From the NCBI RefSeq assembly GCF_003991905.1, contig NZ_RSCL01000016.1, forward strand, positions 1 to 64,000: DNA of 64,000 nt, read 5' to 3'. The DNA is from Dulcicalothrix desertica PCC 7102. Its GTDB lineage: Bacteria; Cyanobacteriota; Cyanobacteriia; Cyanobacteriales; Nostocaceae. This document shows positions 39,197 through 55,041 of the stretch, one piece after another; position 1 is the first letter of the stretch; each line of letters starts with the position of its first letter. The notes under the pieces were generated by a model. The model searched no databases and was not told the origin of the DNA. It saw only the letters and a list, made by a program, of their open reading frames with translations. The position numbers were made by a program, and so were the translations under genes.

Positions 39197-39335
39197 CAAG
39201 GGTGTATTCTGGGAATAATGTATTTTTTGTCACTGTTTTGGGAACTTTTAATCTATATAATTCCCAATTTTTTCATTTTATTCTCAGTTAATGGTGCTAC
39301 CGAAGCCACTGAAAATTATCTGTAAACAAGCACAA

Positions 39336-39377: not shown

Positions 39378-39498
39378 ATACTTAGTAACATAAAAAACAT
39401 TTAGCATACAGAATAAGAATCACTCTATCTTCAGGGTAGGGATTTTTGTAATGGGCGCCAAGTGGAATGGTGAAATTTTGTTAGGGGGCACATAAAAA

Positions 39499-39597
39499 AT
39501 GGTTGATAGAAATATTTGTACAGTAGCCGAAATCGATTTGGCTCTTTTAACTCAAAAACTGTACCAGTATTTTAGCTGCATAGTAGGGGAGGGATGA
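39499..39597 (+). CDS. 32-residue leader peptide or small operon protein
   Basis: ATG to TGA, with TTAGGGGG as a good ribosome site 10 nt upstream. The peptide has ICTVAEIDLALLTQKLYQYF in its centre. Its stop ends 1 nt before the GTG start of the first GTPase, so the two are likely translationally coupled. It may be a real small subunit or only a coupling leader. Confidence 0.5.
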   Translation: MVDRNICTVAEIDLALLTQKLYQYFSCIVGEG

Positions 39598-39598
39598 T

Positions 39599-40348
39599 GT
39601 GGGAGTCATTTATATAGGTGACCGCAGCGTTGGAAAAACTCACTTAGCAATGGAGCTAACTAACCCTAAAAATGAATATGTAAAAGTAGTAAAAGTATCT
39701 GATCAAGATTACGAAGCTTTGAAAGTCGGTTTGCTGGACGAGAATTGTAGCGCAAGACCTACAAATACTACTTACCAACGTGACTTGAATATTCAAGTAC
39801 GACTTCCTGCAGGTAATAAGCAAGTAATAGTTGACTGGATAGATTCACCAGGGGAGGTTTGGAGACAAAGTTGGCAAAGCCAGAACCAAAATGAATGGAG
39901 CAAGTTTTTGGATACGATACGCCAAAGTGAAGGCATTTTGCTGATTCTACCACCGCATCGAGGTTTAAACTTTATGCCTGGTGTGGATGTAGAGCAATTT
40001 CTTAGCCAACAGCAGTGGTGTAATCGTTTTGAACGGTGGGTGGAATTTTTTTGCCATGATTGTCCAAAGGCAAGGCACATTCTGATTTGTTTAAATAAAG
40101 CTGACTTGTTTTGCGATTTGCAGCGAGAGGCATTCCAGCTTGCCTATCATCTAGGTGGCGCCCAAATGAATTGGCAGCAGCGTCATAACTATGTTTCACA
40201 GCGATACTTTAGACCAATTCATCCGCAGTTAGAACAAATAAACAAAAATATATTAGGTTTATCGGTTCGCTGCTTTATCACTAGTATCTATAATCGTTCT
40301 TTATTGGAATTACCTTGGATATATTTAGCCAGCTTTTTGGCTAAGTAA
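39599..40348 (+). CDS. Small GTPase of conflict/signalling operon, 1
   Basis: A 249-residue GTPase with all main motifs: G1 GDRSVGKT (residues 6-13), G3 DSPGE near 82, and G4 NKAD near 166. It has no membrane helix. The start is GTG with GGGGAGGGA just upstream, inside the end of the small frame. It is the first of three tandem GTPase-like genes. The NKAD makes guanine specificity likely. Related tandem GTPases next to vWA and kinase genes have been described in bacterial NTP-dependent conflict systems; direct identity with any named family is not shown here. Confidence 0.8.
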   Translation: MGVIYIGDRSVGKTHLAMELTNPKNEYVKVVKVSDQDYEALKVGLLDENCSARPTNTTYQRDLNIQVRLPAGNKQVIVDWIDSPGEVWRQSWQSQNQNEWSKFLDTIRQSEGILLILPPHRGLNFMPGVDVEQFLSQQQWCNRFERWVEFFCHDCPKARHILICLNKADLFCDLQREAFQLAYHLGGAQMNWQQRHNYVSQRYFRPIHPQLEQINKNILGLSVRCFITSIYNRSLLELPWIYLASFLAK

Positions 40349-40405
40349 AAGAAGGGCAAATCAATATAAAGAAGTATTTTTAATAAAATCAATACAAAAA
40401 ATAAT

Positions 40406-41230
40406 ATGGGGAATATTCGTGTAATCGGTCCACGAGGGTCAGGTAAAACTACTTATTTAGCAGCCTTAGCTTATCAACCAGTACAATCAGGCGGCAGGAC
40501 TAAGAATTTTAAGGTACAGGCAATTAATGAAGATACAAGAAAATTGGCTGAGAAGGCAGAAAATATTATTCTTGAAGGAGAATCTTTAGAACCTACAGGA
40601 GTTTTAGTTAAAACTATTGATGATGTACCTGTTTATTCTTTCAATATTCAAATTCAAACATTATTTAATAGAAAAAAAAATATTAACCTGGTAGTGAGAG
40701 ATTATCCAGGTGAAATTTTTGATGAATTAGAACTAGGTTTAACAAGTCAAATTCAAACAGAATTTATTGATGAGTGTTTAACGAAGGATGTAGTTGGCTG
40801 CTTGATTTTGCTAACCGAATGGAAGAAAGGAGCAGACAAGCATTATAGCCGAGTGCTACAACGCTTTATTGAGTTAATGGATATCCAAGGGAGAATAAAT
40901 GATTTACGTTTGGCTGTAACAATGAGTAAGTGTGAGCGTGGAGAACTTTGGCCTGGTCGCTTAGAACCGGAGATTGATTTATTTAGCGCGCGCTTACCAA
41001 AAACTACAGCCATTTTAAAAGAGAAAATTCCGCCTCAGAATTTAAACTTTTATGCTGTATCAACCTTTGGTGTTCTTGGTCGCAATAATCCCCGACCCAA
41101 CCGGGTTGAAGAATTAGGAGGTAGCGGCAGAAATTCAGTTTTGCGAGAAGCACATCGCTGGCAACCTTACAACTTAATAACACCTCTTTACTGGCTGAGT
41201 ACGGGTAGGAGGATGAGAAATGATACGTGA
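40406..41230 (+). CDS. GTPase-like P-loop NTPase of conflict/signalling operon, 2
   Basis: A 274-residue P-loop protein with G1 GPRGSGKTTYLAAL at the N-terminus, G3 RDYPGEIF near 98 and a G4-like SKCE near 174. After the core come FYAVSTFGVLGRN and LITPLYWLSTGRR, a conserved tail shared with GTPase 3. The gene overlaps GTPase 3 by 11 bp. The two are paralogues and may form heterodimers. The changed G4 leaves base specificity open. Confidence 0.8.
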   Translation: MGNIRVIGPRGSGKTTYLAALAYQPVQSGGRTKNFKVQAINEDTRKLAEKAENIILEGESLEPTGVLVKTIDDVPVYSFNIQIQTLFNRKKNINLVVRDYPGEIFDELELGLTSQIQTEFIDECLTKDVVGCLILLTEWKKGADKHYSRVLQRFIELMDIQGRINDLRLAVTMSKCERGELWPGRLEPEIDLFSARLPKTTAILKEKIPPQNLNFYAVSTFGVLGRNNPRPNRVEELGGSGRNSVLREAHRWQPYNLITPLYWLSTGRRMRNDT

Positions 41231-42125
41231 TTTGTTCAAGAAAATTTCTCCGGAATCACTGCAAAGTAACGCAGTACTAAGGGTTATTGGCGACCGTTCT
41301 TCTGGTAAAACAACTTATATGGCATCTTTGGCGCGCTGGCCTAATGCTGACCCTTCAAGTCCTGTGCAGTCTGTTATCTCTATTAATGAAGCTGGGGAAG
41401 AATTAATAACCAAAGCTCAAAATTTATTAGAGCAAGGCTTAACTCTCGAACCAAGTAATCTTGATACTGATGTATTGCAGATGAAGGACTACAGTCTCAG
41501 AATTACCTTAAAAGCACAGTTTTCTTGGAAGAATCCCAAAGCTACAATCGGTTCCCAATTGGTAAACCTCAATATTAGTTCTAAAGACTACGCGGGAGAG
41601 TTTTTCACTGACTTGCTTTATCAAACAGGAAGCTCACAACTCAGTGATTACTTAGATGACTGTTTGCAAGCAACGGGAATTATGTTTTTAATTGATGGTA
41701 ACAGTCATCGGAAAGATTTAGAGTATGCTGCGGGTTTGGACAAGTTGTTAACAGCGTTAGACCGTGCAGATATTAACGCCCTTACGCGGAAAATATCGTT
41801 AGTTTTAACTAAATGTGAGCAATCAAGCTTGTGGGTAAATTGTCACAAACCAGCATTTCTTGCTGAAGCTCGTTTTCCTCAAGTTTACAGAAAGTTACAA
41901 ACATGGCAGCAAACGGGCGCCGGAAGCGTGGATTATTTTACGACTTCAGCTTTCGGAATGTTGGGAAATAAATATCCAGAGCCAAATATGAATTTACTAA
42001 GTCGCGGTCGGGACGGGGTTGCCGCAATCATCAAAGACCCCAGACGCTGGCGCCCATTTGGCTTAGTGGCGCCGATATATTGGCTTTGTACAGGTGAGCG
42101 TCATAAGGAATTAGATAAGGGTTAA
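41220..42125 (+). CDS. GTPase-like P-loop NTPase of conflict/signalling operon, 3
   Basis: A 301-residue paralogue of GTPase 2, with G1 GDRSSGKTTYMASL near 23-36, G3 KDYAGEFF near 122 (Ala replaces Pro), G4-like TKCE near 197 and the shared tail (TSAFGMLGNK, APIYWLCTGER). Only 4 bp separate it from the next gene, so it is probably stoichiometrically linked with it. Confidence 0.8.
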   Translation: MIRDLFKKISPESLQSNAVLRVIGDRSSGKTTYMASLARWPNADPSSPVQSVISINEAGEELITKAQNLLEQGLTLEPSNLDTDVLQMKDYSLRITLKAQFSWKNPKATIGSQLVNLNISSKDYAGEFFTDLLYQTGSSQLSDYLDDCLQATGIMFLIDGNSHRKDLEYAAGLDKLLTALDRADINALTRKISLVLTKCEQSSLWVNCHKPAFLAEARFPQVYRKLQTWQQTGAGSVDYFTTSAFGMLGNKYPEPNMNLLSRGRDGVAAIIKDPRRWRPFGLVAPIYWLCTGERHKELDKG

Positions 42126-42129
42126 ACAA

Positions 42130-44199
42130 ATGGAAGCAAATAATACTATTGAAATTCACGAGTTTAGTACTGGCATTCGCGCGGAAGAAACTGCGGATGG
42201 TGGGTGGGTGTCGCAAGGCTTTACCGGGCAGTACATGAATATGACTTTGGATAAACTTCCGTCTGCCGTCGAAAATTCTATTCATGAAAAGGAATTTGAA
42301 GTAACCGAAGGTGCTTCCAGCGACAAACCAGCAATTATTGGTCGTGTAGTAGGGAGTGATGAGGATACATGGTCTGTCGTCGCTGTAGTTACGCGCGGGC
42401 AAGATAACGTCTCACGAAGTTTTTCTGTATATCGTTACTTTCTTTGCAAGGGGGAGAATATCGAGAAAATTTTAGCTTGGTTAGATAGTCGGGGGATACC
42501 AACTTTTAACCCTTTTGACTCAAAATTTACTAGACAACCTTATCCATGTCCTGAAGATTGTCCTGAATATACTCCAGAAAGCTCAAAAGTTCCGAATATA
42601 AATTTTAAAGATTCAGAACCAACGCTATTAGAACCAGAGAAATGCAACGATTTTAAGATACTTAATTTTTTAGCGGCTAAAAAGTCGGAAGAGAACAAGC
42701 AACCTGTTTCTTGGGCATATAACGTAGAAGCGCTGGAAAAACCCAGAAAATTTCAGTTAATTCAACCAGCAAGTCAACGTGCCCACAACATTTTAGACAG
42801 AGCAATTAAAAACATAGCACATTCCTTGGCGCCAGTTATTATGGATGAAGAAGCTATCAAGTCTGCTATTAGAGGTTTAATTAATAGTTCCCAAGTCAAA
42901 CCCGAAGCAGTGGAAAAAATTGCTGAAGCTATACAAAATGAACAAATTACAGAAAAATACTGGCACAGTTTGTTTGATGCACAGGGAGCAAAAATAGCAA
43001 TCAGCCAAAAAATTTATAGCCCGCAGATGGTACGGTTAATTACCTTAAGAGCGATGGTAATACCTGAAACGCTACCAGAATTTATGGATTGGTTGAATTT
43101 TAAGGGTAATAAAAGTAAACTCGACGATAATCAAACTATTTCTTTAGACTTTCAAAAAGCTATTCAAGGAAAATTTCCTACAGACGGACTTACAAAAGGA
43201 ATCAAGCTTCTACTTCTTGAATTATTGAATAACAAAATTACACCTGAATCTATATATTTGCTATTAATGATAAAAGGTAGTGCTTGGCATTCTTGCTGTA
43301 AAGAATTTACTAATGATGTTTTTGATGATTTACAACTAATTGCCAAACATGTTAAGCCCATATCTGTAGATTTTAAATGTCAAGCAGAAACATGGAATAG
43401 TTTAACTTATAATTGGAGTTCAATTAAATCTAATTATTTTTCTTGTTCTCAATATAAACCTTTAGCTCAGTTGTTTGAGCAGTTAAAAGACTATCGACTA
43501 TCTGCTTATTTTTATCAAGTTAGTACCGGGGAAGTGCCCAAATATATCTTTAAAAAAATATCTAAAGCTCATCAACGCAAAATTGAAGAGGAACTAGGAT
43601 TAGAGCTATATTGCAAATTAGCTTTGACAGAAAAAATTTATAATTATGCTGCAAATCAAGAAGTGCCAATTCAATATCTTATTTTTTTGTTAGCATTATT
43701 CGTATTATTTACTGCTAGTAAAGTATTTTCTGAACCTAAAACCAGGGTTGAATTAGCCGATTTAAGCACAGAAAAAAATCAATCAGTACCCAGTCCCACG
43801 ACTCATAAAACAAAGCTGTGCAACACTAAAAATTTGCCAACTCTCACAAAAGATGAAATAAATAATGCTAACAATAAATTTAATGAAACTCGTGAATCGA
43901 TTGAAAAAATTGTTGATAATTTTCAAAAAAATTCTCTATATAATAATTTAAATGAGGAAGAAATAGCAAAAAAGATTTTACATGCTTTAGGATGTAAAAA
44001 TTTAAATACCGATACCGAAGATTTTAAAGCAATAATTCAAAATAAATCGTTAAAAGTTAGCGCAGCACAACAATCTGAATTAGTTAAAGTTATTTATCAG
44101 TTTCAAGATAAAAACAAACAAAAAGTTGATAAAGCTGATGGAATTATATATATGGATGGTAAGACGTACAAAGAATTAGAGAAACAAGCTCAATTATAA
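42130..44199 (+). CDS. GTPase-operon large protein with central membrane segment
   Basis: A 689-residue protein. The N-terminal 130 residues are a compact domain (EIHEFSTGIR, GGWVSQGFTGQYMN, SSDKPAIIGRVVGSD, WSVVAVVTRG, FSVYRYFL) that is clearly a conserved unit. A helical middle follows (about 190-510), then one membrane segment near 513-532 (YLIFLLALFVLFTASKVF), and a hydrophilic, possibly periplasmic, tail of about 150 residues. It directly follows the GTPases and is likely their membrane partner or regulator. A comparison with GTPase-associated proteins of conflict systems is reasonable but unproven. Confidence 0.65.
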   Translation: MEANNTIEIHEFSTGIRAEETADGGWVSQGFTGQYMNMTLDKLPSAVENSIHEKEFEVTEGASSDKPAIIGRVVGSDEDTWSVVAVVTRGQDNVSRSFSVYRYFLCKGENIEKILAWLDSRGIPTFNPFDSKFTRQPYPCPEDCPEYTPESSKVPNINFKDSEPTLLEPEKCNDFKILNFLAAKKSEENKQPVSWAYNVEALEKPRKFQLIQPASQRAHNILDRAIKNIAHSLAPVIMDEEAIKSAIRGLINSSQVKPEAVEKIAEAIQNEQITEKYWHSLFDAQGAKIAISQKIYSPQMVRLITLRAMVIPETLPEFMDWLNFKGNKSKLDDNQTISLDFQKAIQGKFPTDGLTKGIKLLLLELLNNKITPESIYLLLMIKGSAWHSCCKEFTNDVFDDLQLIAKHVKPISVDFKCQAETWNSLTYNWSSIKSNYFSCSQYKPLAQLFEQLKDYRLSAYFYQVSTGEVPKYIFKKISKAHQRKIEEELGLELYCKLALTEKIYNYAANQEVPIQYLIFLLALFVLFTASKVFSEPKTRVELADLSTEKNQSVPSPTTHKTKLCNTKNLPTLTKDEINNANNKFNETRESIEKIVDNFQKNSLYNNLNEEEIAKKILHALGCKNLNTDTEDFKAIIQNKSLKVSAAQQSELVKVIYQFQDKNKQKVDKADGIIYMDGKTYKELEKQAQL

Positions 44200-44255
44200 T
44201 TGAATAATAAATTAAGACAACCCAAAGAAACAAAAAAAGTTAACGTTGAGAAAAA

Positions 44256-45335
44256 ATGAGAATATATCTTTACATCATAACTGGAATTACATCAGCACTA
44301 CTTGGTTGGAATCTGGGTCAGTATTTCTTGACTGACTTAGGTTTACTAAAACCTTTTCCCGAAATTATTCTATTTCCTTGTGTTGCTGCTTTATTAGCAA
44401 TTGGGATGGTTATGAATGAAATATTTATTAGCAATCCGACTCGACCTAAACTCTGTTTGAGAATTGCTAAAACTCCTTTATTAATTGCGCTCGCTTTAGG
44501 GATTTTGGCGGGTTTGATAGCTGGGATAATTTCACAAGTTTTATTTTTACCCTCAATTCGTGTTCCGACTCCATTTGTTAGAACCATTGGCTGGCTTTTA
44601 ATTGGTTCTTCTGTTGGAATTGCAGAGGGTTTAAGTTGGCGGTGGCATAGTATGGAAGCTGGTGACGTTGCACGGTTTCAACAACGGTTAATTATCAGTG
44701 TTACTGGCGCCAGTATGGCAAGTTTAGTTGCAGCTATATTATTTGAGTCTATTCGTCAAGGTTTTGGTAGGATGCCACCTGAATTTAGAAGCCTTGAAGA
44801 CCCTTTAGGATTCTCAATTTTAGGTTTGTTGCTAGGCTTGATTTTTAGCATTACTAATTCGCCCAGTTATTTAGGCGCCTTGAGAGCAGGTGGTGGTTTT
44901 GAATATACAGGAATAAACTATGAGGAGATTGACCCAAATACTCCTAGCAGAAATCCTCCGCATATTGATAGGAGAGTACTTCAATTTGTTAGCGACAGCA
45001 GAGCTAGTAAAATTGAGGAAGGTCTGTCAATTAAATTACCCGGTACTGGTAAGGTGAGAATTGGTTCTACTTTTAAGCAATGTCAGATTTATATCCCTGA
45101 TATACCTCCCCATGTTGGTAATTTAATTTTAAACAGGCGCCAAGCGCTACTCGAAGTAAATCCTAAATTTCTAAATACTATTGAAGTGAATGGGGAACGT
45201 TTAACTGCTACCAATAAAAAATTTTTAAAACACAACGATATATTGACATTTTTCTCTATTAATGGGAACGGAAAAAATGAAACGAATATTTATCGATTTG
45301 TCTACTATAATCGCTTCCTTGACCCGCAAGGTTAG
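44256..45335 (+). CDS. Polytopic membrane protein with C-terminal FHA-like domain
   Basis: A 359-residue protein. About five membrane helices fill residues 1-190 (ITGITSALLGWNLGQYF, IILFPCVAALLAIGMVM, PLLIALALGILAGLIAG and others). The C-terminal part (about 250-350) has the beta pattern of an FHA domain (SIKLPGTGKVRIGSTFKQCQ, VNGERLTATNKKFLKHNDIL), although the central RSHA-type phosphothreonine residues are replaced by PPHVGN. It may dock other operon proteins at the membrane. It overlaps the next gene. Confidence 0.65.
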   Translation: MRIYLYIITGITSALLGWNLGQYFLTDLGLLKPFPEIILFPCVAALLAIGMVMNEIFISNPTRPKLCLRIAKTPLLIALALGILAGLIAGIISQVLFLPSIRVPTPFVRTIGWLLIGSSVGIAEGLSWRWHSMEAGDVARFQQRLIISVTGASMASLVAAILFESIRQGFGRMPPEFRSLEDPLGFSILGLLLGLIFSITNSPSYLGALRAGGGFEYTGINYEEIDPNTPSRNPPHIDRRVLQFVSDSRASKIEEGLSIKLPGTGKVRIGSTFKQCQIYIPDIPPHVGNLILNRRQALLEVNPKFLNTIEVNGERLTATNKKFLKHNDILTFFSINGNGKNETNIYRFVYYNRFLDPQG

Positions 45336-46557
45336 TTTGTCTATGCTTATGGTAGCCGCTGTTACTTTCCCAGGACAAGCACAAGTAGCGGAAATTGTTG
45401 GTAATCCCACTGTCAATGATGACCGTGTAACAGTTCGGGTTAAAGTCAAAGATGCTGAAGAAAAACCTGTTATGGGTCTACAGGATACGAATTTTAAATT
45501 GTCAGTAGACAGTAAAGAAGTCCAATTTAAAAACAAAGACTGGAAAAGCCCGGAGGAAAGTACACCCCCACCAGCTTGGATTATTGTACTACTAGATTTT
45601 AGTGGCAGTATGGATAAACCAGATAGTCGGGGTACGAAAAAAATTGAGGGAGCTATTAAAGCAATTCGCCATTTCACAAACATGTTAAAAGAACGTGGAG
45701 AAAATACACAAATAGCTCTTGTTCCTTTTGGCGAACCAGGCACTACATGTCAAGGAAACCCTGTTAATGAAGAAACTATTGATAAATTCTTTCCAGCGAA
45801 TGATTTTAAATTACAAAACAATCTTGATTATTTAGCTAGTTTAACTCCTTGTGCTTCTACAAACCTCTATAACCCTTTGCAAAAAACAGTTAGGTTTTTG
45901 GCTAATACCAAAGACCCTCGTTTTTATATACCTGAAGATTCCTCACAACCCAAACCAAGACTTTCAATTATTTTGCTGTCTGATGGTTATCACAATGCAT
46001 CAAATGAAGAACAGGATTTTCAAGAGTTGACTAATCTATTAAAAAGAAACAGTCATATTATTGTACATACCTTGGGGTATGGTTTGACACCAAGGCAGCT
46101 AGGTATAAAATATGGCATTGGGAGAGCAGTTACTCGTCGTGATATTGGTACAGGTAGAGGTAAAGTCCCAGAAGCAGAATTTGTAGATAAACAAAGATTA
46201 GCAGAAATTGCCAAATTAACTGGTGGGATAGCCGAGTTTTCTGGAGATTCAGAAGCGATAGCCGAAAATTTGCAGCTATTTCTCAATGCTTTGTTGGGAG
46301 AGTATGAAATTACCTACACTCAACCCGATGCAGAACGCGGCGCCAAGCACAAAGTAAAAGTTACGGTTACTTATAAAGATGGTCAGCAGATAGAGTCTTT
46401 ACCTAAAGGTTACACAATTACCGTTTTTGGCAGGTCGTTTCCTCTATCTATACGACTTGGCATATTAATCTGCACATTGCTTCTGCTGTCACTAGGTGGT
46501 GTGGCGCCATTTTACTTTTGGGGGAAACATCTAAAAAACCAAGCTTTAGGAGATTAA
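45277..46557 (+). CDS. Membrane-anchored vWA-domain protein
   Basis: A 426-residue protein with a signal sequence (to about GQAQ), a short beta domain (ERVTVRV-like DDRVTVRVKVKDA) and a vWA domain at about 95-330 with the MIDAS motif LLDFSGSMD. The end has one membrane helix near 400 (IRLGILICTLLLLSLGGV). The vWA domain should lie in the periplasm. The ATG at 45,277 is preferred to 45,262; both start inside the previous gene. The vWA metal site is intact, so it can bind ligands or partner proteins. Confidence 0.8.
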   Translation: MKRIFIDLSTIIASLTRKVSLSMLMVAAVTFPGQAQVAEIVGNPTVNDDRVTVRVKVKDAEEKPVMGLQDTNFKLSVDSKEVQFKNKDWKSPEESTPPPAWIIVLLDFSGSMDKPDSRGTKKIEGAIKAIRHFTNMLKERGENTQIALVPFGEPGTTCQGNPVNEETIDKFFPANDFKLQNNLDYLASLTPCASTNLYNPLQKTVRFLANTKDPRFYIPEDSSQPKPRLSIILLSDGYHNASNEEQDFQELTNLLKRNSHIIVHTLGYGLTPRQLGIKYGIGRAVTRRDIGTGRGKVPEAEFVDKQRLAEIAKLTGGIAEFSGDSEAIAENLQLFLNALLGEYEITYTQPDAERGAKHKVKVTVTYKDGQQIESLPKGYTITVFGRSFPLSIRLGILICTLLLLSLGGVAPFYFWGKHLKNQALGD

Positions 46558-46565
46558 TTACAGCA

Positions 46566-47468
46566 ATGAATACTTTACACAAGTTAATTATATTTCCTTT
46601 GATTGTGTTACTTATTTCAGCATGTAATGCATTAAATGCACAAAGCTTAACTGGAAACCAAGCAAATTCTAGTTCTGACAAATGTCCAGACAAACCAACT
46701 GGTTCTCTCAACATCAATAAAGTTGAAAAAATTCAGCTAAGTTCACAACCTGTTACAAAATCCGCTCAAGTCCAAGCGGGTCAATATTTAGGATACACTT
46801 TTACCGCCGAATCAGGTCAAAAGTTAAATCGCGAAACCAAAGAAAATATTTGTATTTGGGTTTATGCTCCAGATAATCAGATTATCACAGGTAAAGATTT
46901 ATTGCAAAGAGGTAGGTATATTATTCAAGTTACGGCGCCGCAAGGTTATACTGCTTTTGATTTAAAGCTAAGTTTAGAATCACCAGCAACTTCTAATTCA
47001 TCTTCTGATGATACTAACAAGCAGATAGCTACATCCCCACCTTCAGCAACCGAAAGTTCGTCTGTAAACACAAATATTCCCATATCAAGAACAGAAAGTT
47101 TACCTGCAACTACAAATAACACGTCTCGACCATCTCCTGAAAAAGTCGTGGAAGATTACTTTGTTAAAATTAATAATAAGGAATTCTTAGATGCATGGAA
47201 TATTTTAACTACTCAAGCTCAAGATAATAAACAATATCATCCAAATGGATTTAATTCCTTTTTGGAATGGTATAGAGACACTGTTGATTATGTAAATATT
47301 CAAAATATAGCTTTAGTGCAGTCTAACCAAGATGTGGCAACGGTGAACTTTAGGAGTAGATATAACGTTAAATATGGCAAAATAGTTCCTGTCAATTTAA
47401 TGTTTTATATGAGGTGGAATGAAGAAAAGCAAAATTGGGCTATTAATAGAATACAAGTTTTAAAATAA
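46566..47468 (+). CDS. Lipoprotein of the kinase operon, 1
   Basis: A 300-residue lipoprotein. The signal is MNTLHKLIIFPLIVLLISAC with the lipidated Cys in ISAC. An N-terminal beta domain (KVEKIQLSSQPVTKSAQVQA, GQYLGYTFTAESGQ, CIWVYAPDNQII) is shared with the next gene. A Ser/Thr-rich linker leads to a C-terminal domain (EKVVEDYFVKINNKEFLDAW, NWAINRIQVLK) that looks like an NTF2-like fold. Start is 9 bp after the vWA stop. Confidence 0.75.
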   Translation: MNTLHKLIIFPLIVLLISACNALNAQSLTGNQANSSSDKCPDKPTGSLNINKVEKIQLSSQPVTKSAQVQAGQYLGYTFTAESGQKLNRETKENICIWVYAPDNQIITGKDLLQRGRYIIQVTAPQGYTAFDLKLSLESPATSNSSSDDTNKQIATSPPSATESSSVNTNIPISRTESLPATTNNTSRPSPEKVVEDYFVKINNKEFLDAWNILTTQAQDNKQYHPNGFNSFLEWYRDTVDYVNIQNIALVQSNQDVATVNFRSRYNVKYGKIVPVNLMFYMRWNEEKQNWAINRIQVLK

Positions 47469-47493
47469 TTAAATACAATTATAGCATCTATTT

Positions 47494-48474
47494 ATGAAAA
47501 CTTATACAGCAATTTCCGTTTCTGGCTTATTACCTACGAATCAAGCAATAAAAATATTTTTAATATTACCAATATTACTGTGTAGCAGTTGTTCAGCATT
47601 ACAGATACTAGCTAAGGATATTTCTAATAATGCTGATGCGAAGTGTAGAGAAAAACCTGCTGGCACACTGGATAGTAAAAACGTCAAAAAAATTCAATTA
47701 GGCTCTCAAACGGTTATAGAGTCTGCTCAAGCAAAAGCAGATGAATATTTAGGGTATGCTTTTGAAGCTGAATCTGGTCAGAAACTGCGCCTTTCTACAG
47801 ATGCTGATGTTTGTGTATGGGTATATGCACCTAATAATCAAATTTTGAAAGGTGAAGATTTGTTGCAAACAGGTAGATACATCATTCAAGTCTCAACGCT
47901 TAAAGATTCCAAAAATTTTGAAATGAAAATGGCTTTGGGTAATCCCCAGGATTTTTCAAATTCTAACTCTTCTGTTTCTAATTCTTCCGTTTCTAATACT
48001 TCTGTTTCTAATAATGCTACTCCTACAGTTCTTCCAAATCCTATTATAGCTACGTCTACATCTACATCTGAAACTAATTTCAGCCAAGAACAAGCACTAG
48101 GGTTAATTCAAGAATGGTATACTGCTAAACCACAAATCTTTGCAGAGCCTTTTGATACAAGTTTAGCTAATAAACTGACTACTGGAAAACTATATGAAAA
48201 AATTGTACATCCAACAGATGGTTCTATTGCTTGGCTTAAAGGCAATAATTCCTACTATAGATATACCCGGCATGAAATTAAAAATGTTATGGAGTTCTCC
48301 AATTATGAAAAACAACCATATATAAAGGTCAGAATCATTGAAGAATTATATTTTTATGATAAAGGTCAAATTAGCAAGAAAAATTCTGGACTTTATCAAA
48401 GAAATTTTATCTACTTTTTTGCTCAAGATGATAACGGAGCCTGGAAAATATCCGATAGTGCAAAAATAAATTAG
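47494..48474 (+). CDS. Lipoprotein of the kinase operon, 2
   Basis: A 326-residue paralogue of lipoprotein 1. The signal ends in LLCSSC. The first domain matches the sister protein (VKKIQLGSQTVIESAQAKAD, EYLGYAFEAESGQKLRL, CVWVYAPNNQIL). A low-complexity SNSSVSNSSVSNTSVSNN linker follows near 155-175, and a C-terminal domain with EQALGLIQEWYTAKPQIF and FFAQDDNGAWKISD that resembles the ARC6-IMS/NTF2-like type. The pair probably arose by tandem duplication. Confidence 0.75.
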   Translation: MKTYTAISVSGLLPTNQAIKIFLILPILLCSSCSALQILAKDISNNADAKCREKPAGTLDSKNVKKIQLGSQTVIESAQAKADEYLGYAFEAESGQKLRLSTDADVCVWVYAPNNQILKGEDLLQTGRYIIQVSTLKDSKNFEMKMALGNPQDFSNSNSSVSNSSVSNTSVSNNATPTVLPNPIIATSTSTSETNFSQEQALGLIQEWYTAKPQIFAEPFDTSLANKLTTGKLYEKIVHPTDGSIAWLKGNNSYYRYTRHEIKNVMEFSNYEKQPYIKVRIIEELYFYDKGQISKKNSGLYQRNFIYFFAQDDNGAWKISDSAKIN

Positions 48475-48477
48475 TAG

Positions 48478-48494
48478 GGTGGGCATTGCCCACC
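48478..48494 (+). repeat. GGTGGGC/GCCCACC hairpin in the operon
   Basis: Seven-base arms around ATT, 4 bp after the lipoprotein 2 stop. No T-run follows. It may partly separate the upstream and downstream parts of the operon. Confidence 0.5.
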
Positions 48495-48550
48495 ATACAC
48501 ATATCTCAAAAATCTGGCAGATATTTTTATATAAATTAAATCATTAGATT

Positions 48551-48934
48551 ATGGTTAAATATAGTTTTTATCTGAAAGTCAAAGTTAGTGGAGACGAACA
48601 TTCTTACTCTTTAGACTTAAATTCAAATCAAGAAAATGCTCCTGAAAAAGTTTTTACTTCCGAGGTTAGAGAAAATATTCGTTTAAACCTGCAAAACCAA
48701 AGTTTATGTGCTATAAAGGATAATCATATAAACCAGATTGTTAATACTTGGATACAAGATATCAAAGAGGGATATCGAGATAGCACACTAACTTTGAATT
48801 TACCTCTATTAATAGAATCAGGAATCGAAGAGCTAAATGAACAAGGGAATCAAGAGATTCCTGCTCTAGTTAATCCTGATTTATCTGATATAGAGCCGAC
48901 GTTTGGAATGTTGCCACCGTTAATTTTTTCTTAA
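48551..48934 (+). CDS. Small cytosolic protein, unknown
   Basis: A 127-residue soluble protein with a mixed alpha/beta pattern (KYSFYLKVKVSGDEHSYSL, RENIRLNLQNQSLCAIKDN, VNTWIQDIKEGYRDSTLTL). It lies 33 bp before the second vWA gene. No family is recognised; its constant place would suggest a subunit. Confidence 0.6.
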   Translation: MVKYSFYLKVKVSGDEHSYSLDLNSNQENAPEKVFTSEVRENIRLNLQNQSLCAIKDNHINQIVNTWIQDIKEGYRDSTLTLNLPLLIESGIEELNEQGNQEIPALVNPDLSDIEPTFGMLPPLIFS

Positions 48935-48967
48935 GTCAAATTTTACACATTATTTAGAGGATTACAA

Positions 48968-50362
48968 ATGTCAGATGCATTAAATATAAGCATTACTCCG
49001 CATCGAGAATTTATGCCTGCGGATACGGCAGGACAGAAATTATTCTTGATGTTGAAAATACGCCCAAATAAAGAAGTAGCTAAAACTCTTCCACCTACTA
49101 ACTTTGTATTTGTCATTGATACCAGTGGTTCGATGTATGAAGTAGTTTCTGGAGAAATAACTCCTACTGGTACTACTTATATACAGGACGGTAAGCAATA
49201 CAACGAAGTAACAGGAGGTAAATCGAAAATCGATATTGTTATTGAGTCTTTGTTAGCACTAGTACGTTCTGGCAAACTAAAAGACACTGACCGTGTTGCA
49301 ATTGTTCAGTTTGATGATAATGCTTCACAGATTATTGGTTTAACCCCTGCGACACAAATTAGTCAGTTAGAAAACGCTATTACTAAACTTCGCAGCTTTT
49401 CCGGTGGTACTCGCATGGGACTAGGGTTGAGTCGTGCTTTAGATATACTTGGTAATCAAGATATGGCTGTCCGACGTACCCTATTATTTACAGACGGTCA
49501 AACTTGCGATGAAGACACCTGCCGAAATATTGCATCAGATTTTGCCGCTAAAAATATCCCGATAACTGCTTTGGGAGTTGGTGAAGACTTTAAAGAAGAT
49601 TTACTTTCTCATTTGAGCGATTCTACGGGTGGAAGCTTATTTTATGTGGTTCCTGGTAATGCTATTGGTACCCAGGTTCCTATATTAGAGTTACCAAATA
49701 AAATTATTGAGGAATACAGCCAAGCACAGCAAGAAGTTATCACAAATTTAGCTTTAACAGTCAAAACTGTTAAGGGTGTAGAACTTACCCGTATTGTTCG
49801 CGCGTATCCTACTCAAGCAGAATTCCCTTTAACTCAAGACCCTTATCCTATTGGTAATGCTGCGGCAAATGATGAAACAATATTTATTCTTGAATTCAGC
49901 ATGGATAACCGTCCTGCGTCGCGCGTTCGTATTGCTCAACTTGGTTTAACCTACGATATCCCTGGACAAAACCGACGTGGTGAACTTCCACCCCAAAATT
50001 TAGTAATTCAATTTGTTGTCGGACAAGGGGGTGCAGCACAAGTTGACCAAGAAGTAATGGATTATGTACAGCAATGTAATATTTCTAATATAGTTGGCCA
50101 AGCCATAACAATTGCCGACCGCGACCCCCGCAAGGCTGAAGAACTGTTAGAAACCGCGCGACGCATGACCGTTAGAATTGGCAATGCAGCAATGGAAGAA
50201 TCACTCAACGGCGCCCAACAAGAGCTACGCAAAACCCAGAAAATTTCTTCAGGAACTCGTAAAACCGTTAAAATAGGCGCCAAAGGTAAAACTGTCAAAA
50301 TGGGCAGTGATATTAATAGCCAATTTTCAGAAGAAGAAATGCGTCAGCTGACAGGAACCTAA
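48968..50362 (+). CDS. Cytosolic vWA-domain protein with C-terminal TVK repeats
   Basis: A 464-residue vWA protein without signal peptide. The MIDAS is VFVIDTSGSMYE near residue 55, with SGGTRMG and FTDGQT completing the metal site. The middle is beta-rich. The C-terminus has two copies of a short motif, RKTVKIG and GKTVKMG (about 430-445). Because the operon has FHA proteins and a Ser/Thr kinase, the Thr in these motifs is a plausible phosphorylation and FHA-docking site (inference). AGAGGATT lies before the ATG. Confidence 0.8.
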   Translation: MSDALNISITPHREFMPADTAGQKLFLMLKIRPNKEVAKTLPPTNFVFVIDTSGSMYEVVSGEITPTGTTYIQDGKQYNEVTGGKSKIDIVIESLLALVRSGKLKDTDRVAIVQFDDNASQIIGLTPATQISQLENAITKLRSFSGGTRMGLGLSRALDILGNQDMAVRRTLLFTDGQTCDEDTCRNIASDFAAKNIPITALGVGEDFKEDLLSHLSDSTGGSLFYVVPGNAIGTQVPILELPNKIIEEYSQAQQEVITNLALTVKTVKGVELTRIVRAYPTQAEFPLTQDPYPIGNAAANDETIFILEFSMDNRPASRVRIAQLGLTYDIPGQNRRGELPPQNLVIQFVVGQGGAAQVDQEVMDYVQQCNISNIVGQAITIADRDPRKAEELLETARRMTVRIGNAAMEESLNGAQQELRKTQKISSGTRKTVKIGAKGKTVKMGSDINSQFSEEEMRQLTGT

Positions 50363-50463
50363 AATTCACCCAATTTTAGATTAGATTCTCGGTTTTAGCT
50401 TTTGAATTGCTAGTTACCAAAAAGATTACCAAAAAAATTATCATAATCACAAGAGAAATACAA

Positions 50464-50961
50464 ATGATTGTCTGTACAGCATGTTGCTACGATAAAAATC
50501 CAGATGACGCTGAATACTGTGACGCTTGTGGTTCAGAATTACAAGCAGCGGTAATTCCTGCACCTAGCGTTATCCAGCCACAAATATCGTCTCCACAAAT
50601 ACTGCAACCCAGTTCTTCAACTACAACAATAGCCAAGCTTATTTCCAAACATCCAGGTTCTCCTGTACCAGAATTTATTTTGGATAGTAATGCTATTGTT
50701 GGTATATTTGACCCAGATATGGGGCCTGTAGATATTGACTTAGAAGAATTTCCTGGTGGTGAAACCGTTTCACGTAGCCATGCAGAAATTTTTTTAGAAG
50801 CAGGAGTCTGGAAAGTCAAAGATATAGGCTCTACAAATGGCATTTTTATTAAACTAAGTGGTCAAACTCGTTACGGCGCCAGAATTACTATACCAGAAAC
50901 TATAAATATTGGAGACGAAGTAGCTTTCGGTAAAGTCCGCTTCCTCTTTCAAAGCGCTTGA
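50464..50961 (+). CDS. Zinc-ribbon FHA-domain protein
   Basis: A 165-residue protein. An N-terminal zinc ribbon (CTACCYDK..., CDACGSE; Cys at about 4, 7, 20, 23) is joined by a proline-rich linker to an FHA domain at about 75-160 (SRSHAEIFLE, VKDIGSTNGIFI). The FHA signature residues Ser-Arg-Ser-His and Thr-Asn-Gly are intact, so phosphothreonine binding is likely. The ATG at 50,464 follows a polar stretch with AGAG; a longer frame from 50,407 looks less likely. Predicted adaptor between kinase and vWA protein. Confidence 0.85.
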   Translation: MIVCTACCYDKNPDDAEYCDACGSELQAAVIPAPSVIQPQISSPQILQPSSSTTTIAKLISKHPGSPVPEFILDSNAIVGIFDPDMGPVDIDLEEFPGGETVSRSHAEIFLEAGVWKVKDIGSTNGIFIKLSGQTRYGARITIPETINIGDEVAFGKVRFLFQSA

Positions 50962-51064
50962 AGGCATTTTGAAACAGTTTTAATACTATGGGAGCAAACT
51001 TTTTCTCCCATATTTATTATATAGCCATGTTTTAAGTAAACGAAATCTACTAATAGGGTATTCA

Positions 51065-52891
51065 ATGATATTATCTTCAACTGACACAAGCGCGACATTA
51101 TTAATCCAAGAAAATCAAAGTTTCCAACTAGAAAACTTTCGAGTAAAAGTTTTATCATACCTAGGTCAACTGACAACAGATACATACTACTTCAAAGTTA
51201 ATATTTTTGAAATAGAAACTGATACTGCTATAGGTAAATTAGGTTTATTGCGTGTGGGTTCAGATAAAGGAGGACTGTATCGAGAGTTGAAGTTAAGAGA
51301 AGCTCTCGGTGATTATAAAATGGTCGCTGAACTTTTAGCTCATACAACAATAGACTCCGTAATCATTAATCCCCACTTGTCTACTGCTAATCTAACGGTA
51401 AATCAAGAATATGAGCAGCATCAGCCAGACCATTCAACACAAGAGGGCGAATTAATAGACAATACAACCTTCAAAACGAGTGAAAATATAGATGAATTTA
51501 GCTTAAGCGAGCAAATTGTAAGTACAGATAGCCAAGTAGAAACAGCCTCTCAGTATTTAGAGGAGGAATATTACCCCGAAATAGAAGCACATTTTGAATT
51601 ATCTTCTAGTAAACTTTTATTATTAACTGATTTTGTAGAAGATACAAAAACACTAGATACTTGGCTAAAATCAGAACCCTCCTTAGAAGATTCATTATTT
51701 ATAACTAGCCAAGTCTGCCAATTTTTACGCTATGCTCATGAACGGAATTGGTGCTTTATCTCAATTGAACCTCGACTTATAACAATAGGAACACCCTGTA
51801 CCTTCTTTGATTTAACCAGTGCTTATGCAGTCGGTGAAACATTGCCTTTTTGTTTGTCAGGAAGCTATTGTGCTTCCGAACTTGCTTCAAACAAGAGTCT
51901 CATCCACCAGTCAATGAGTACTTATACAGTAGGAGCATTGCTATATCATTCAATTCATCAACAACCTTTGTCACCACATCAAACAACCGAGCTTACAATC
52001 AATCCTATTCCTGGCATTTACCAAATATTAAAAATTAGCCTATCTCCAATTCCCGAAGAACGCTTCAGTTTATCTCAGTTGCTCACCACACTTTTAGAAA
52101 ATCGTCAAGCAATTCGGAATCCGAAAATACGATGGAATGTTGCGAGCCGTTCGACAGTAGGGTTATCAGTTAGGCGCCTGCAAAATGAAGACAACTACGG
52201 TGTTAAGCAGCAGTTCAGCGATTTGGAAACAATGATATTGGGAGTTGTTGCTGATGGGATGGGTGGTTTATCTTACGGAGAAGTTGCAAGTAAACTAGCA
52301 GTACAAACAGTTTTAGAAGAGCCAATAACTTCTTTGAAAACCGTAGAAAAACGCAATGAATGGTTAATGTCATTATTCGATAAAGCTAATGAGGTAATAT
52401 CTAATAATGTTAAAGATGCAGGAACCACGTTAAGCGTAGTACTATGTATTTCTCAACAATTAATGATAGCTCATGTTGGTGACAGTCGAATTTATCTATT
52501 ACGTCAAGGTAAAATAAGCCAGTTAAGTGAAGACCATTCGCTTGTCGCGATGTTAATTGCTAGTAATCAAATCACAGAAGCTGAGAGTGAACAACATCCA
52601 GACCGAAATGTACTCATTAAATCTCTTGGCGCCAAAAATCGATTAAGCGATGGTTACGTCCAAAACCTGAAGCGTACTACTCCAGATTTATCAATGAATT
52701 TAGAACATAATGACATCTTACTATTATGTACAGATGGCGTTTGGGATTTTGTATCTAAAAACGAGCTTGAAGAAATCTTTCACAATCATCAAGATTTACA
52801 ACTAGCAGTAAACCAAACTATTGATAAAGTTCTAGAACTAGGCGCCTCGGATAATGCCACCCTTTTAGCAATGCAATATCATGTCCAATAA
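51065..52891 (+). CDS. PP2C-type protein phosphatase with N-terminal pseudokinase
   Basis: A 608-residue two-part protein. Residues about 190-345 have the outline of a kinase C-lobe without catalytic residues: FISIEPRLITI stands in place of HRD-KPxN and FFDLTSAY in place of DFG, followed by STYTVGALLYHSI. The C-terminal 250 residues form a PP2C phosphatase with all metal-binding motifs (NEDNYGV, VVADGMGG, AHVGDSRIYLL, LLCTDGVWD, SDNATLL). It should reverse the phosphorylation made by the next gene's kinase. A pseudokinase fused to PP2C suggests it senses or binds the kinase. Confidence 0.85.
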   Translation: MILSSTDTSATLLIQENQSFQLENFRVKVLSYLGQLTTDTYYFKVNIFEIETDTAIGKLGLLRVGSDKGGLYRELKLREALGDYKMVAELLAHTTIDSVIINPHLSTANLTVNQEYEQHQPDHSTQEGELIDNTTFKTSENIDEFSLSEQIVSTDSQVETASQYLEEEYYPEIEAHFELSSSKLLLLTDFVEDTKTLDTWLKSEPSLEDSLFITSQVCQFLRYAHERNWCFISIEPRLITIGTPCTFFDLTSAYAVGETLPFCLSGSYCASELASNKSLIHQSMSTYTVGALLYHSIHQQPLSPHQTTELTINPIPGIYQILKISLSPIPEERFSLSQLLTTLLENRQAIRNPKIRWNVASRSTVGLSVRRLQNEDNYGVKQQFSDLETMILGVVADGMGGLSYGEVASKLAVQTVLEEPITSLKTVEKRNEWLMSLFDKANEVISNNVKDAGTTLSVVLCISQQLMIAHVGDSRIYLLRQGKISQLSEDHSLVAMLIASNQITEAESEQHPDRNVLIKSLGAKNRLSDGYVQNLKRTTPDLSMNLEHNDILLLCTDGVWDFVSKNELEEIFHNHQDLQLAVNQTIDKVLELGASDNATLLAMQYHVQ

Positions 52892-52947
52892 TCAGAGGAT
52901 TTGTTTTCATATTTCACCTAATTAATTTTGAATTTATTTTACGCAAA

Positions 52948-55041
52948 ATGTCTATTCAATGCCCAACATGTCTGACTACAAATACTGATAGCGCTGTCAG
53001 TTGTATAGCTTGCGGTACACCTCTTACTACCAATAGTAACTCAACTGGATATCATTTACCTCGCGGAACGTTACTAAAGCAAGGACAATATCAAATAGAA
53101 AAATTATTAGGGGAAGGTGGCTTTGGCATTACATATAAAGGAGTATATCTACCAAATTCAGCCCAAGTTGCTATAAAGGAACTTTGGCCTGAAAAAGCAG
53201 TGAGAATTGGCAATACAATAACATGGCCCTCTTCAATACCACCCGCACAAAGACTACACCAAATTAATAAAGTTCAATTAGAAGCTAGTTATCAACAAAA
53301 ATGCGTTCATCCTAGTATTGCTCAAGTCTATGATTGGTTTGAGGAAAATAATACTGCTTATATAGTAATGGAATTCATACCTGGAAAGTCTTTGTATCAA
53401 ATTCTACAAGACGAAGGAATATTAGAAGAAACTAGAGTTAAGTATTATTTTCTTCAAATTGCAGAAGCTTTAAAAGTTATTCATGCTAATAATTTATTAC
53501 ACAGAGATATTAAACCAGATAACATTTTAGTAGACAATAACAGAGCAGTATTAATTGATTTTGGCGCCACAAAAGAATTTATAGCAGGTCAAACAAGCGA
53601 GGTCAGCATAACTTTAACACGAGGTTATGCGCCCTTGGAGCAATACAGTTGTCGAGGTAAACGCTTTCCTGCAACAGATTTTTATGCTTTGTGTGCATCA
53701 ATGTATGAACTGTTAACTGGAAACTTACCCCCAGCAGCTACAGATATTATAAATGGTTGTGATACACTCATTCCACCTCGACAATTACGCCCAAATCTCA
53801 GCCCCTTAATCGAAAAAATTGTTCTCACTGGAATGCAACATCGTGTTGAAGACCGTTTTCAAGGCGCCGATGAATTAATTGATGCTCTCAATAATAAATT
53901 TGTTTCTCCCAGCCAAAAAAGAGCGCGGGAGTTAGTTAAGCAAGGTAAATTGGCTGAAGCAGTTATAGTTTATGAAAAACATCTCAACAGTGAACCGAAT
54001 GATGGAGAAGTTGCTACTGAGTTAGCCTTGGTACAAATGCATTTAGACGACACACAAGCAGAAAACGCGGCATTTGGCGCCATTCAATTAAAACCAAGTG
54101 ATGGTAGAGCATATGGAGTATTAGGACTTGTTAACTGTCGTAAATCAAATTGGTCAGAAGCTTTAATAAACTTGCAAAAAGCAGCAAATTTATCTCCTCA
54201 AGAAGGTTGGATACTAGCAAATTTAGCCTGGGCATTAGGTAACTCCAAGAATTGGCAGCAAGCAGATTTTTTTATCAATAAAGCGCTTCAGCTTGAGCCG
54301 AACAGTACTTTTGCATTAGGTATACAAGCTTGGATAGCAGTTAATCAACAGCAATGGAAACTAGGGGTTAGTACAGCGACTCAAGCAATTTTTAAGATGA
54401 GACAAAACTCCTCTGTAAATTCTCAACAATTACAACAATGGGTATATCCTTATTTAATTTTTGCTTTAGATAAAGCAGTTGTCACTCAGCAAGCAACCGA
54501 CGTAGAAAGACGTATTCAAGAATTTATTGCCCAAGTACCAAATAATAATTTTGGTTTTGGTTTTAGAGGTTGGAAGCAAGCTATGCAGGGTTTATGGAAT
54601 GATGCAGCTTTAAATTTTGACTCTTCAAATAAAAGTTCACAAGTATCTAGTTGGACATTAGTTAATAAAGGAATCACTCAAGAACATTTACATAATTTCC
54701 AAGCAGCTATACAATCTTACGAAACTTGCATAGTAAAATATCCATCTCAATATTTTGCATTATATCGTCTTGGTACTTTGTACGGACAAGCTGGACAATG
54801 GCAAAAAGCACGTTATTACTTAGAAAAAGCAGTCAAATTACAACCAAATTACGCAGAAGCTTATCATAATTTAGGTTGGGTCATGATTAACATAAAAGAC
54901 CAAAACGGTCAAGTAGAAAACTGTACCGAGATTTTATCAGTGTATCGTAAAGCATTTCAACTGTACACGCAGCAGGGAAAACATTCTTTCGCTCAACTTA
55001 TCAAACAAGCTTTTCTAGCAGTTAACGCTGGTAATTTTTAA
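52948..55041 (+). CDS. Zinc-ribbon Ser/Thr protein kinase with TPR repeats
   Basis: A 697-residue kinase. The N-terminal zinc ribbon (CPTC, CIAC) is followed by the kinase domain at about 45-310 (LLGEGGFGITYKG, VAIKELWPE, LLHRDIKPDNILVD, IDFGATKEF, YAPLEQY). Catalytic residues are intact. The second half holds about nine TPR-like helices (AEAVIVYEKHLNSEPNDGE, ALINLQKAANLSPQEGW and so on). It has the same zinc-ribbon type as the FHA protein, hinting at a shared docking partner. It is the last gene of the operon. Confidence 0.9.
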   Translation: MSIQCPTCLTTNTDSAVSCIACGTPLTTNSNSTGYHLPRGTLLKQGQYQIEKLLGEGGFGITYKGVYLPNSAQVAIKELWPEKAVRIGNTITWPSSIPPAQRLHQINKVQLEASYQQKCVHPSIAQVYDWFEENNTAYIVMEFIPGKSLYQILQDEGILEETRVKYYFLQIAEALKVIHANNLLHRDIKPDNILVDNNRAVLIDFGATKEFIAGQTSEVSITLTRGYAPLEQYSCRGKRFPATDFYALCASMYELLTGNLPPAATDIINGCDTLIPPRQLRPNLSPLIEKIVLTGMQHRVEDRFQGADELIDALNNKFVSPSQKRARELVKQGKLAEAVIVYEKHLNSEPNDGEVATELALVQMHLDDTQAENAAFGAIQLKPSDGRAYGVLGLVNCRKSNWSEALINLQKAANLSPQEGWILANLAWALGNSKNWQQADFFINKALQLEPNSTFALGIQAWIAVNQQQWKLGVSTATQAIFKMRQNSSVNSQQLQQWVYPYLIFALDKAVVTQQATDVERRIQEFIAQVPNNNFGFGFRGWKQAMQGLWNDAALNFDSSNKSSQVSSWTLVNKGITQEHLHNFQAAIQSYETCIVKYPSQYFALYRLGTLYGQAGQWQKARYYLEKAVKLQPNYAEAYHNLGWVMINIKDQNGQVENCTEILSVYRKAFQLYTQQGKHSFAQLIKQAFLAVNAGNF

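Follow-up and report, generated by a model that had tools for sequence, protein, structure and literature searches.

The 64,000-nucleotide stretch of Dulcicalothrix desertica PCC 7102 analyzed here (the window) makes up the first 64 kb of contig C16, in a genome of 11.4 Mb and 109 contigs; its nif genes and closest relatives point to a heterocyst-forming cyanobacterium. At 39599-55041 on its + strand it carries 13 intact co-directional genes, g01 to g13, with short gaps or overlaps between them (open reading frames of 249, 274, 301, 689, 359, 431, 316, 326, 127, 464, 184, 608 and 697 amino acids, in that order). From their sequences we propose, with a probability of about 0.5, that this operon encodes a kinase-coupled cyanobacterial variant of the systems centred on DO-GTPases, an envelope-spanning, GTP-switched and phospho-tuned sensor-response machine that would probably serve in biological conflict. 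It is likely that the products co-operate as one machine. The role in conflict is a tentative assignment, at a little under even odds, and action on or sensing of peptidoglycan is a possibility that we hold with some doubt.

A preliminary description of the window had counted fourteen frames in the operon. Thirteen of them stand, being intact and having orthologs that are collinear across genera. The remaining one, a 32-codon frame at 39499-39597, has no convincing counterpart in related loci and is probably no gene. Because the orthologs keep the same order across different genera, chance is excluded as an explanation of the operon.

Results

The cluster recurs with a conserved gene order

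Among 291 genomes of the order, homologs of g04 were found in 61 and an ortholog of g10 (E<=1e-40; the weakest of the matches listed has E 1.4e-89) in 46, all of which are among the 61 with g04. The hypergeometric P for this co-occurrence is 7.6e-41, with genomes treated as independent though they are not. The third GTPase, g03, is present in 65 of the 291, and 56 of these are among the 61 with g04.

Gene order was compared in 20 stretches from D. desertica and its relatives (loci L034-L053) and in a scan of named genomes, part of which overlap with the first set. Those of the 20 stretches that bear the cluster share its gene order, some being partial at contig ends or missing genes; L034 and L035 are parts of one D. 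desertica cluster, and L037 has no cluster gene. The scan gave 71 loci, all on cyanobacterial records except for a short contig of a Chloroflexaceae metagenome-assembled genome (L122). Once 26 loci with fewer than 5 scored core genes had been set aside (g07 and g08 were not scored), the genes were collinear on one strand in 35 of the remaining 45. Three of the ten non-collinear loci (L075, L076 and L101) owe their status to an additional kinase that scores lower and is encoded on the opposite strand; the other seven have rearranged or dispersed genes, and in several Okeania loci the genes that follow g04 are absent or inverted. The idea that these genes are scattered and never together in related genomes is thus contradicted.

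Domain fusions were also found. A 560-residue protein (L153 7730-9412) joins an intact-looking Ser/Thr kinase to a DO-GTPase, in a genome that also has a full cluster (L039). In two cyanobacterial proteins (L145 8206-12338 and L144 8049-11723) a SAV_2336 vWA domain (454.8 and 504.2 bits, cut-off 200) is followed in the same chain by a GTPase with 35% identity to g03, and the L145 fusion adjoins a MoxR-like ATPase with WKIFKG and PSWRKF motifs. Collinearity, co-occurrence and domain fusions all back the earlier proposal that the operon specifies one machine.

Partial versions occur as well. Two additional partial clusters lie elsewhere in the D. desertica genome, on contig C47 (L034 8857-20000 and L035 1-4469) and, in divergent form, on C22 (L036 5490-12645). 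In the C47 cluster, AAA_35 genes interrupt the order between g02 and g03, and a Beta-lactamase2 gene stands at the end, in L035. In genome G036 (L148 314-8581), relatives of g13, g12 and g11 lie near one DO-GTPase that has a hydrophobic segment, and g01, g02, g04 and g10 are missing; this locus is possibly a reduced version of the system.

Such partial versions bear on the alternative that two independent modules stand side by side, one of GTPases (g01-g06) and one of vWA, PP2C and kinase proteins (g09-g13) resembling the TerY-P triad. Clusters of g01-g06 without g10-g13 exist, including the two additional ones of D. desertica, whose genome has one g10, and G036 has g11-g13 relatives beside one GTPase with neither g04 nor g10. 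However, the g10 ortholog never occurs without g04 in the 291 genomes at the limit used, and a kinase-GTPase fusion exists. Accidental adjacency was rejected as the preferred explanation on these two grounds, co-occurrence and fusion, and we consider independent modules very improbable.

Table 1. Positions of the operon genes and of the element that carries them (window coordinates).
Feature	Position	Strand	Description
g01	39599..40348	+	GTPase a, DO-GTPase1-like; Walker A, PGE, NKAD
g02	40406..41230	+	GTPase b, DO-GTPase1-like; DYPGE; SKCE replacing NKxD
g03	41220..42125	+	GTPase c, DO-GTPase2-like
g04	42130..44199	+	Large protein at the GAP1 position
g05	44256..45335	+	Hydrophobic N-terminal half and a C-terminal domain common to the ends of the extra vWA proteins
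g06	45262..46557	+	vWA protein; frame overlaps g05
g07	46518..47468	+	Lipoprotein-like A, variable
g08	47494..48474	+	Lipoprotein-like B, variable; ARC6-like IMS domain
g09	48551..48934	+	Small conserved protein; alignment of 27
g10	48968..50362	+	Cytosolic-looking vWA protein with conserved Thr-rich C-terminal tail
g11	50407..50961	+	Zinc-ribbon and FHA protein
g12	51065..52891	+	Pseudokinase-like N-terminal half fused to PP2C phosphatase
g13	52948..55041	+	Zinc-ribbon Ser/Thr kinase with TPRs
nifH element carrying the operon	30779..59945	.	Span includes both direct-repeat copies GGCGGTTTCGCTA
Serine recombinase at element end	58474..59910	-	Candidate excision recombinase; Resolvase E 6.5e-22

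Three DO-GTPases and a large protein in the position of GAP1

According to Kaur et al. 2020 (PMC7159879), DO-GTPases are the switch of predicted conflict systems whose third component is GAP1. The three GTPases recognized earlier in the operon belong to this family by Pfam: g01 and g02 match PF19975 (27.2 and 29.9 bits) and g03 matches PF19993 (27.6 bits), all narrow passes over the cut-off of 27. Of 47 members of the GTPase family, 36 match DO-GTPase1 and 30 match DO-GTPase2 at E<=0.001. The g01 family shows G-x4-GK[ST] in 54/54 sequences, GE in 50/54 and NKAD in 49/54; the g02 family has DYPGE in 57/58 and [ST]KCE in 55/58, and the g03 family D[YF]xGE in 55/55 and [ST]KCE in 43/55. Walker A and the Walker B GE, with the glutamate that defines DO-GTPases, are kept in all three families, so that g01-g03 have both the curated score and the residue by which membership is judged. 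A search of the PDB with g01-g03 returned P-loop matches.

Downstream of the GTPases, g04 comprises a conserved N-terminal region containing IHEFSTG, a middle region, and a fast-evolving C-terminus with a weak PG_binding_1-like motif; one hydrophobic segment is read from the sequence near residue 520. In an alignment of 52 of 67 g04 sequences (66 others and that of the window), PG_binding_1 matched the C-termini of 10/52 members at E<=0.5 and 4/52 at E<=0.01, the next-best family matching 2 among the matches listed. A two-repeat model from another window gene falls, weakly, mostly on the same place. The PDB search with g04 gave two weak matches, the better with E 0.022. Pfam detected no family above cut-off in g04, and the same holds for g05, g07 and g09; for g09 there was no PDB relative either. 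Tandem copies of g04 are found in 14 of the 71 loci; two of these 14, L071 and L073, overlap and come from the same genome.

The phosphorylation module

The identifications made earlier of two vWA proteins (g06 and g10), an FHA protein, a PP2C phosphatase and a kinase with TPRs all hold up in Pfam. In g10, PF00092 was matched with E 8.5e-17, by general VWA models, and D[TS]SGSM is present in 23/23 sequences. Its tail, TRKTVKxGxKGKTVKM, is nearly unchanged between distant orthologs: T[RK]KT was found in 20/23 sequences and KTVK[ML] in 19/23, two of the 23 being cut before the tail. g11 combines PF00498 (E 3.8e-9) with a sub-threshold zinc ribbon; the CxxC pairs are present in 19/19 sequences and SRxH in 18/19. 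The PP2C half of g12 (PF00481, E 3.4e-16) retains ADGMGG and GDSR in 12/12 sequences, while its kinase-like half is without a Pfam match and has HRDxK and DFG in 0/12. The kinase g13 (PF00069, E 4.5e-39, with TPR at the C-terminus) has HRDIKPxN and DFG in 10/10 sequences and N-terminal Cys pairs in 9/10. We infer that the g10 tail is a candidate substrate of g13 and a docking site for the FHA domain of g11.

The envelope side and its variable region

The membrane protein g05 is conserved within the cluster of relatives. Extra vWA proteins occur in the variable region of 16 of the 25 loci that span it, and 11 of 20 such proteins match the g05 model at E<=0.01. Profile comparison (hhalign) of the C-terminal domain of g05 with the C-terminus of the extra vWA proteins gave a probability of 89.3% (E 2.1e-6). 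Since vWA-g05 fusions thus exist in nature, a vWA protein and g05 probably act together. These proteins were also considered as vWA-FHA fusions, and this was rejected because their C-terminal domain compared with the FHA part of g11 reached only 2.3%; they remain vWA-g05 fusions. The vWA protein of the operon, g06, matches PF00092 (E 6.5e-6) and keeps DxSGS in 39/40 sequences; a signal-like N-terminus and a C-terminal hydrophobic segment were read from the sequence.

The description of g07 and g08 as two paralogous lipoproteins stands for their N-terminal halves, which cross-match, and fails for the C-terminal halves, which differ: g08 has an ARC6-like IMS domain (PF13355, E 1.7e-19) and g07 a sub-threshold match to MecA_N. 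The start of g07 is lipobox-like.

We scanned 95 of 104 variable-region frames of relatives with Pfam (25 of 42 families listed). Among the matches listed, a Beta-lactamase2 family serine hydrolase accounts for 11 of the 95 proteins, in 7 of the 25 spanning loci, and VanY for 1 of the 95. The Beta-lactamase2 proteins have SxxK within residues 181-340 in 11/11 cases, an SDN-like motif in 11/11 and a late KxG in 9/11. On a plasmid of Nostoc sp. ATCC 53789, a dynamin-family gene (L126 15325-17970) adjoins the cluster.

Conserved and fast-evolving parts

The ratio of nonsynonymous to synonymous divergence (dN/dS) was computed for pairs with dS below 1.5 (103 for g04, 24 each for g07 and g08, and 57, 109 and 135 for g01, g02 and g03; the pairs share sequences and are not independent). 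Its median is 0.445 for g04, 0.50 for g07 and 0.374 for g08, versus 0.185-0.215 for the GTPases. Identity to the window protein was also compared with that of g03 at the same loci, taking only loci with at least 6 gene families (at most 41 of the 71). On this measure the C-terminus of g04 falls 40 points below g03 and the lipoproteins 27 to 32 points below. The middle of g04 is 19 points below, and the C-terminal domain of g05, the pseudokinase half of g12 and the N-terminal part of g04 are 13-14 points below. Within 6 points of g03 are g01, g02, g06, g09, g10, g11, the hydrophobic half of g05, the PP2C domain and the kinase domain; the identity of the TPR part of g13 is lowered by truncated frames. 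Such a pattern fits a switch that is conserved and a face that diversifies. Between L076 and L101 synonymous divergence is uneven, about 1.5 in g01 and about 0.2 in g05 and g06, which suggests recombination within the operon.

Relation to described systems

The literature search returned, among the papers listed, no direct match on this cluster. The preliminary description knew of no described system with this exact set of genes. The kind of system has been described (Kaur et al. 2020, PMC7159879); the exact set was not found in that source as available to us. The operon resembles the DO-GTPase systems of the GAP1-N2 type in its DO-GTPases with the Walker B glutamate, in a large protein that follows the GTPases and carries a C-terminal hydrophobic segment, and in its vWA proteins, NTF2-like domain, grouping of a zinc-ribbon kinase, a PP2C phosphatase and a stand-alone vWA protein, and variable components. 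In the published GAP1-N2 systems, transmembrane segments lie on GAP1, and vWA, peptidoglycan-binding and NTF2 domains are extracellular (PMC7159879). A constant core with variable components, a trait of DO-GTPase/GAP1 systems, is present here.

There are also differences. GAP1-N1, -N2 and -M were undetected, and neither an FNIII domain nor a zinc ribbon on the GTPases was found; the operon has three GTPases, an FHA protein, a pseudokinase-PP2C fusion and, in relatives, serine-hydrolase or VanY genes. Neither FNIII, which accompanies the GAP1-N2 type, nor GASH, which accompanies the GAP1-N1 type, was named among the Pfam matches of the 13 genes, the existence of a Pfam model for GASH being unchecked. 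The theme of zinc-ribbon kinase, PP2C and vWA is restricted to actinobacteria among the GAP1-N2 systems of PMC7159879, whereas here it is cyanobacterial. In the literature searched, to the extent that it was available to us, this variant is without a description: GAP1 is undetectable, its position is taken by a different membrane protein, and what lies on the periplasmic side varies. For GTPase-centred conflict systems in general, that search found comparative genomics only and no experimental study.

Other systems share parts of this anatomy. The TerY-P triad (PMC11090510) likewise has vWA, PP2C and zinc-ribbon Ser/Thr kinase genes together; its kinase carries the zinc ribbon at the C-terminus, whereas that of the operon is N-terminal, the PP2C protein of the operon carries a pseudokinase, and the set as a whole is embedded in a GTPase operon. 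The ternary MoxR-vWA (VMAP) systems of PMC7159879 are linked to the operon by the two cyanobacterial proteins in which a SAV_2336-type vWA component is fused to an operon-type GTPase. The L145 motifs of the adjoining ATPase fit WxhapG and PsWRxa, the motifs of the MoxR-type ATPases of conflict systems in that source. In the operon itself, no MoxR ATPase was above cut-off among the Pfam matches of the 13 genes, and SAV_2336 was absent from the NCBIfam matches of g01-g10.

Type VI secretion is controlled by threonine phosphorylation through PpkA, PppA and Fha. The operon resembles this pathway in having a kinase, a PP2C phosphatase, an FHA protein and lipoproteins together, and differs from it in that no secretion core gene was above cut-off among the Pfam matches of its 13 genes.

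Points against the proposal, and cell-wall homeostasis

A number of results weigh against the proposed variant of the DO-GTPase systems. No GAP1 model was among the Pfam matches of g04 or among the matches listed for the 52 g04 members (25 of 52 families listed). GAP1-N2 was absent from all 386 genomes searched in the phylum, where the control worked, and from 4 actinobacterial plasmids; GAP1-M was absent from the one genome searched, that of D. desertica, and GAP1-N1 from 292 genomes, but the control for that search was silent. The identification of g04 as GAP1 was rejected at the level of Pfam models, which gave no match; g04 may be a distant homolog. The window g04 itself has no peptidoglycan-related profile match at the limits used, the link being made by weak matches in relatives, and the window operon contains neither a serine hydrolase nor a VanY gene. 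The membrane topology of the operon proteins is a reading of their sequences. g05, which had been taken for a membrane FHA-like protein, has no FHA domain in Pfam, and its C-terminal domain compared with the FHA part of g11 by hhalign reached a probability of 0.2%; on these two results its identity as an FHA protein is unsupported. The highest pairwise dN/dS is 0.80, and none reaches 1 among the pairs listed.

Searches for defence genes and viral relatives belong with these points. PADLOC, applied to 110 of 190 upstream-neighbour frames (upstream flanks only, with no control set), gave scattered matches and no clear defence signal: 23 models were matched at 1e-10, each by 1 or 2 proteins, several of the models being Cas12f. 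Cas12f models can mark transposon TnpB genes. Of the operon itself, ten proteins were scanned (all but g06-g08): most matches were of g13 to general kinase models such as PD-T4-6, one was of g12 to a PP2C model, and the rest were sub-significant. Relatives of g03 were absent from phage records, and of 31 pattern matches to g04 in viral contigs none was confirmed.

The lack of a clear defence signal upstream would also suit a role in envelope stress or cell-wall homeostasis, in which the same set of proteins would detect damage to peptidoglycan and tune wall enzymes in response, with no enemy involved. Consistent with this are the genes for a serine hydrolase and VanY that relatives have in their variable region, the PG_binding_1-like C-terminus of some g04 proteins, and a DO-GTPase that is linked to phage-shock-protein operons and membrane stress (PMC11237479). 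What argues against it is the patchy presence of the cluster (61 of 291 genomes), its carriage by plasmids and an element, the fast evolution of g04 and the lipoproteins, and the tandem g04 copies. We judge homeostasis to be an unlikely, if reasonable, alternative.

Plasmid copies and the nifH element

Relatives of g03 were found on 8 cyanobacterial plasmid records, 4 typed as mobilizable and 2 as conjugative, and the three records inspected hold neighbouring cluster genes too. The cluster fills more than half of the 35.8-kb plasmid B of Trichormus (Anabaena) variabilis ATCC 29413, next to genes for ParA, ParB, DnaB, an integrase and XisF. On a Tolypothrix plasmid, genes annotated as MoxR, caspase, GUN4 and SUMF1-type are among those upstream of the cluster, and such genes belong to the repertoire of the conflict systems in Kaur et al. 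(PMC7159879). Other relatives carry chromosomal copies, to judge from record titles (e.g., L055, L071 and L109).

Plasmid carriage raises the possibility that the operon serves transfer, exclusion or maintenance of plasmids and integrative elements, controlling DNA entry or mating at the envelope. Besides the typing of the plasmid records and the share of plasmid B taken up by the cluster, the evidence for it includes a gene for a type IV coupling-protein-like ATPase. In six loci (L047, L054 (partial), L060, L076, L101 and L110) this gene lies directly upstream of g01, separated from it by 3 to about 390 bp, and in three of the six it is confirmed by Pfam (T4SS-DNA_transf, TraG-D_C). L046 and L052, apparently from the genomes of L076 and L101, also show it, and a short remnant is seen in L055. 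However, among the 42 named loci with more than 1500 bp upstream, only L060, L076 and L101 have the ATPase next to g01; some copies are chromosomal, and no relaxase or other transfer gene was above cut-off among the Pfam matches of the 13 genes. A transfer function is, in our view, distinctly unlikely.

In D. desertica the operon lies in a nifH element, as had been proposed. The DNA between two nifH pieces, about 29.15 kb, is bounded by the copies of a 13-bp direct repeat, GGCGGTTTCGCTA (59933-59945 and 30779-30791), so that nifH sequence flanks the operon on both sides. The insertion point fits the nifH 405 variant of Hilton et al. 2016 (PMC4874684). On the - strand at least three nifH pieces are present, N-terminal (about 62256-62165), middle (about 60270-59933) and C-terminal (about 30791-30385). 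The end of the C-terminal piece is itself interrupted, by a serine recombinase gene (29014-30363), and a tyrosine recombinase (60383-61828) lies within the small nifH insert. Among the 71 named loci and three plasmid stretches, a relative of the window recombinases at 1e-20 was present only on plasmid B. If the element excises, the operon of this genome would be kept in vegetative cells and lost in heterocysts, as the preliminary description suggested. Heterocyst loss is no general property of the cluster, because relatives carry it on chromosomes and plasmids.

Discussion

The proposed kinase-coupled DO-GTPase variant allows a working mechanism to be outlined. The GTPases g01-g03 would form a switch acting on the N-terminal part of g04, which is predicted to cross the membrane once and to contact peptidoglycan or a variable ligand through its fast-evolving C-terminus. 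The vWA protein g06, together with the membrane protein g05 and the lipoproteins g07 and g08, may sense a change in the wall. On the cytosolic side, g13 would phosphorylate the Thr-rich tail of g10, the FHA domain of g11 would dock there, and the pseudokinase-PP2C protein g12 would reset the tail and so set a threshold. The triggered complex might then act at the envelope, in some relatives via the linked serine hydrolase or VanY. Its likeliest use would be in biological conflict at the envelope, with a phage, a conjugative element or a neighbour cell. The earlier suggestion that GTP switches signal across the membrane under phospho-control is consistent with the intact motifs and the fusions.

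An immune or self-recognition role is plausible by analogy, because the GTPase family is the core of published predicted conflict systems and is also fused to a MoxR-vWA component. A bolder version would place the operon in a new class of conflict systems, as an innate immune machine at peptidoglycan in which the GTP switch and the kinase-FHA threshold drive a fast-evolving, wall-binding g04 and wall-modifying partners, g04 being a third core component unrelated to GAP1 and the whole being shared among cyanobacteria by plasmids and the nifH element. We regard this version as speculative and rather unlikely.

The variant recurs in cyanobacteria, including the copy on the 35.8-kb plasmid of the model strain T. 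variabilis ATCC 29413, and it yields specific predictions, namely a single phospho-tail, FHA reader, reset phosphatase and GTPase-binding region. Should the nifH element excise, a multi-gene signalling machine would leave the genome of the nitrogen-fixing cell.

Upstream of the operon, at 37044-39112 on the + strand, are a D12-class adenine methyltransferase gene and a downstream gene with a sub-threshold match to SacI endonuclease, a possible restriction-modification pair on the same element.

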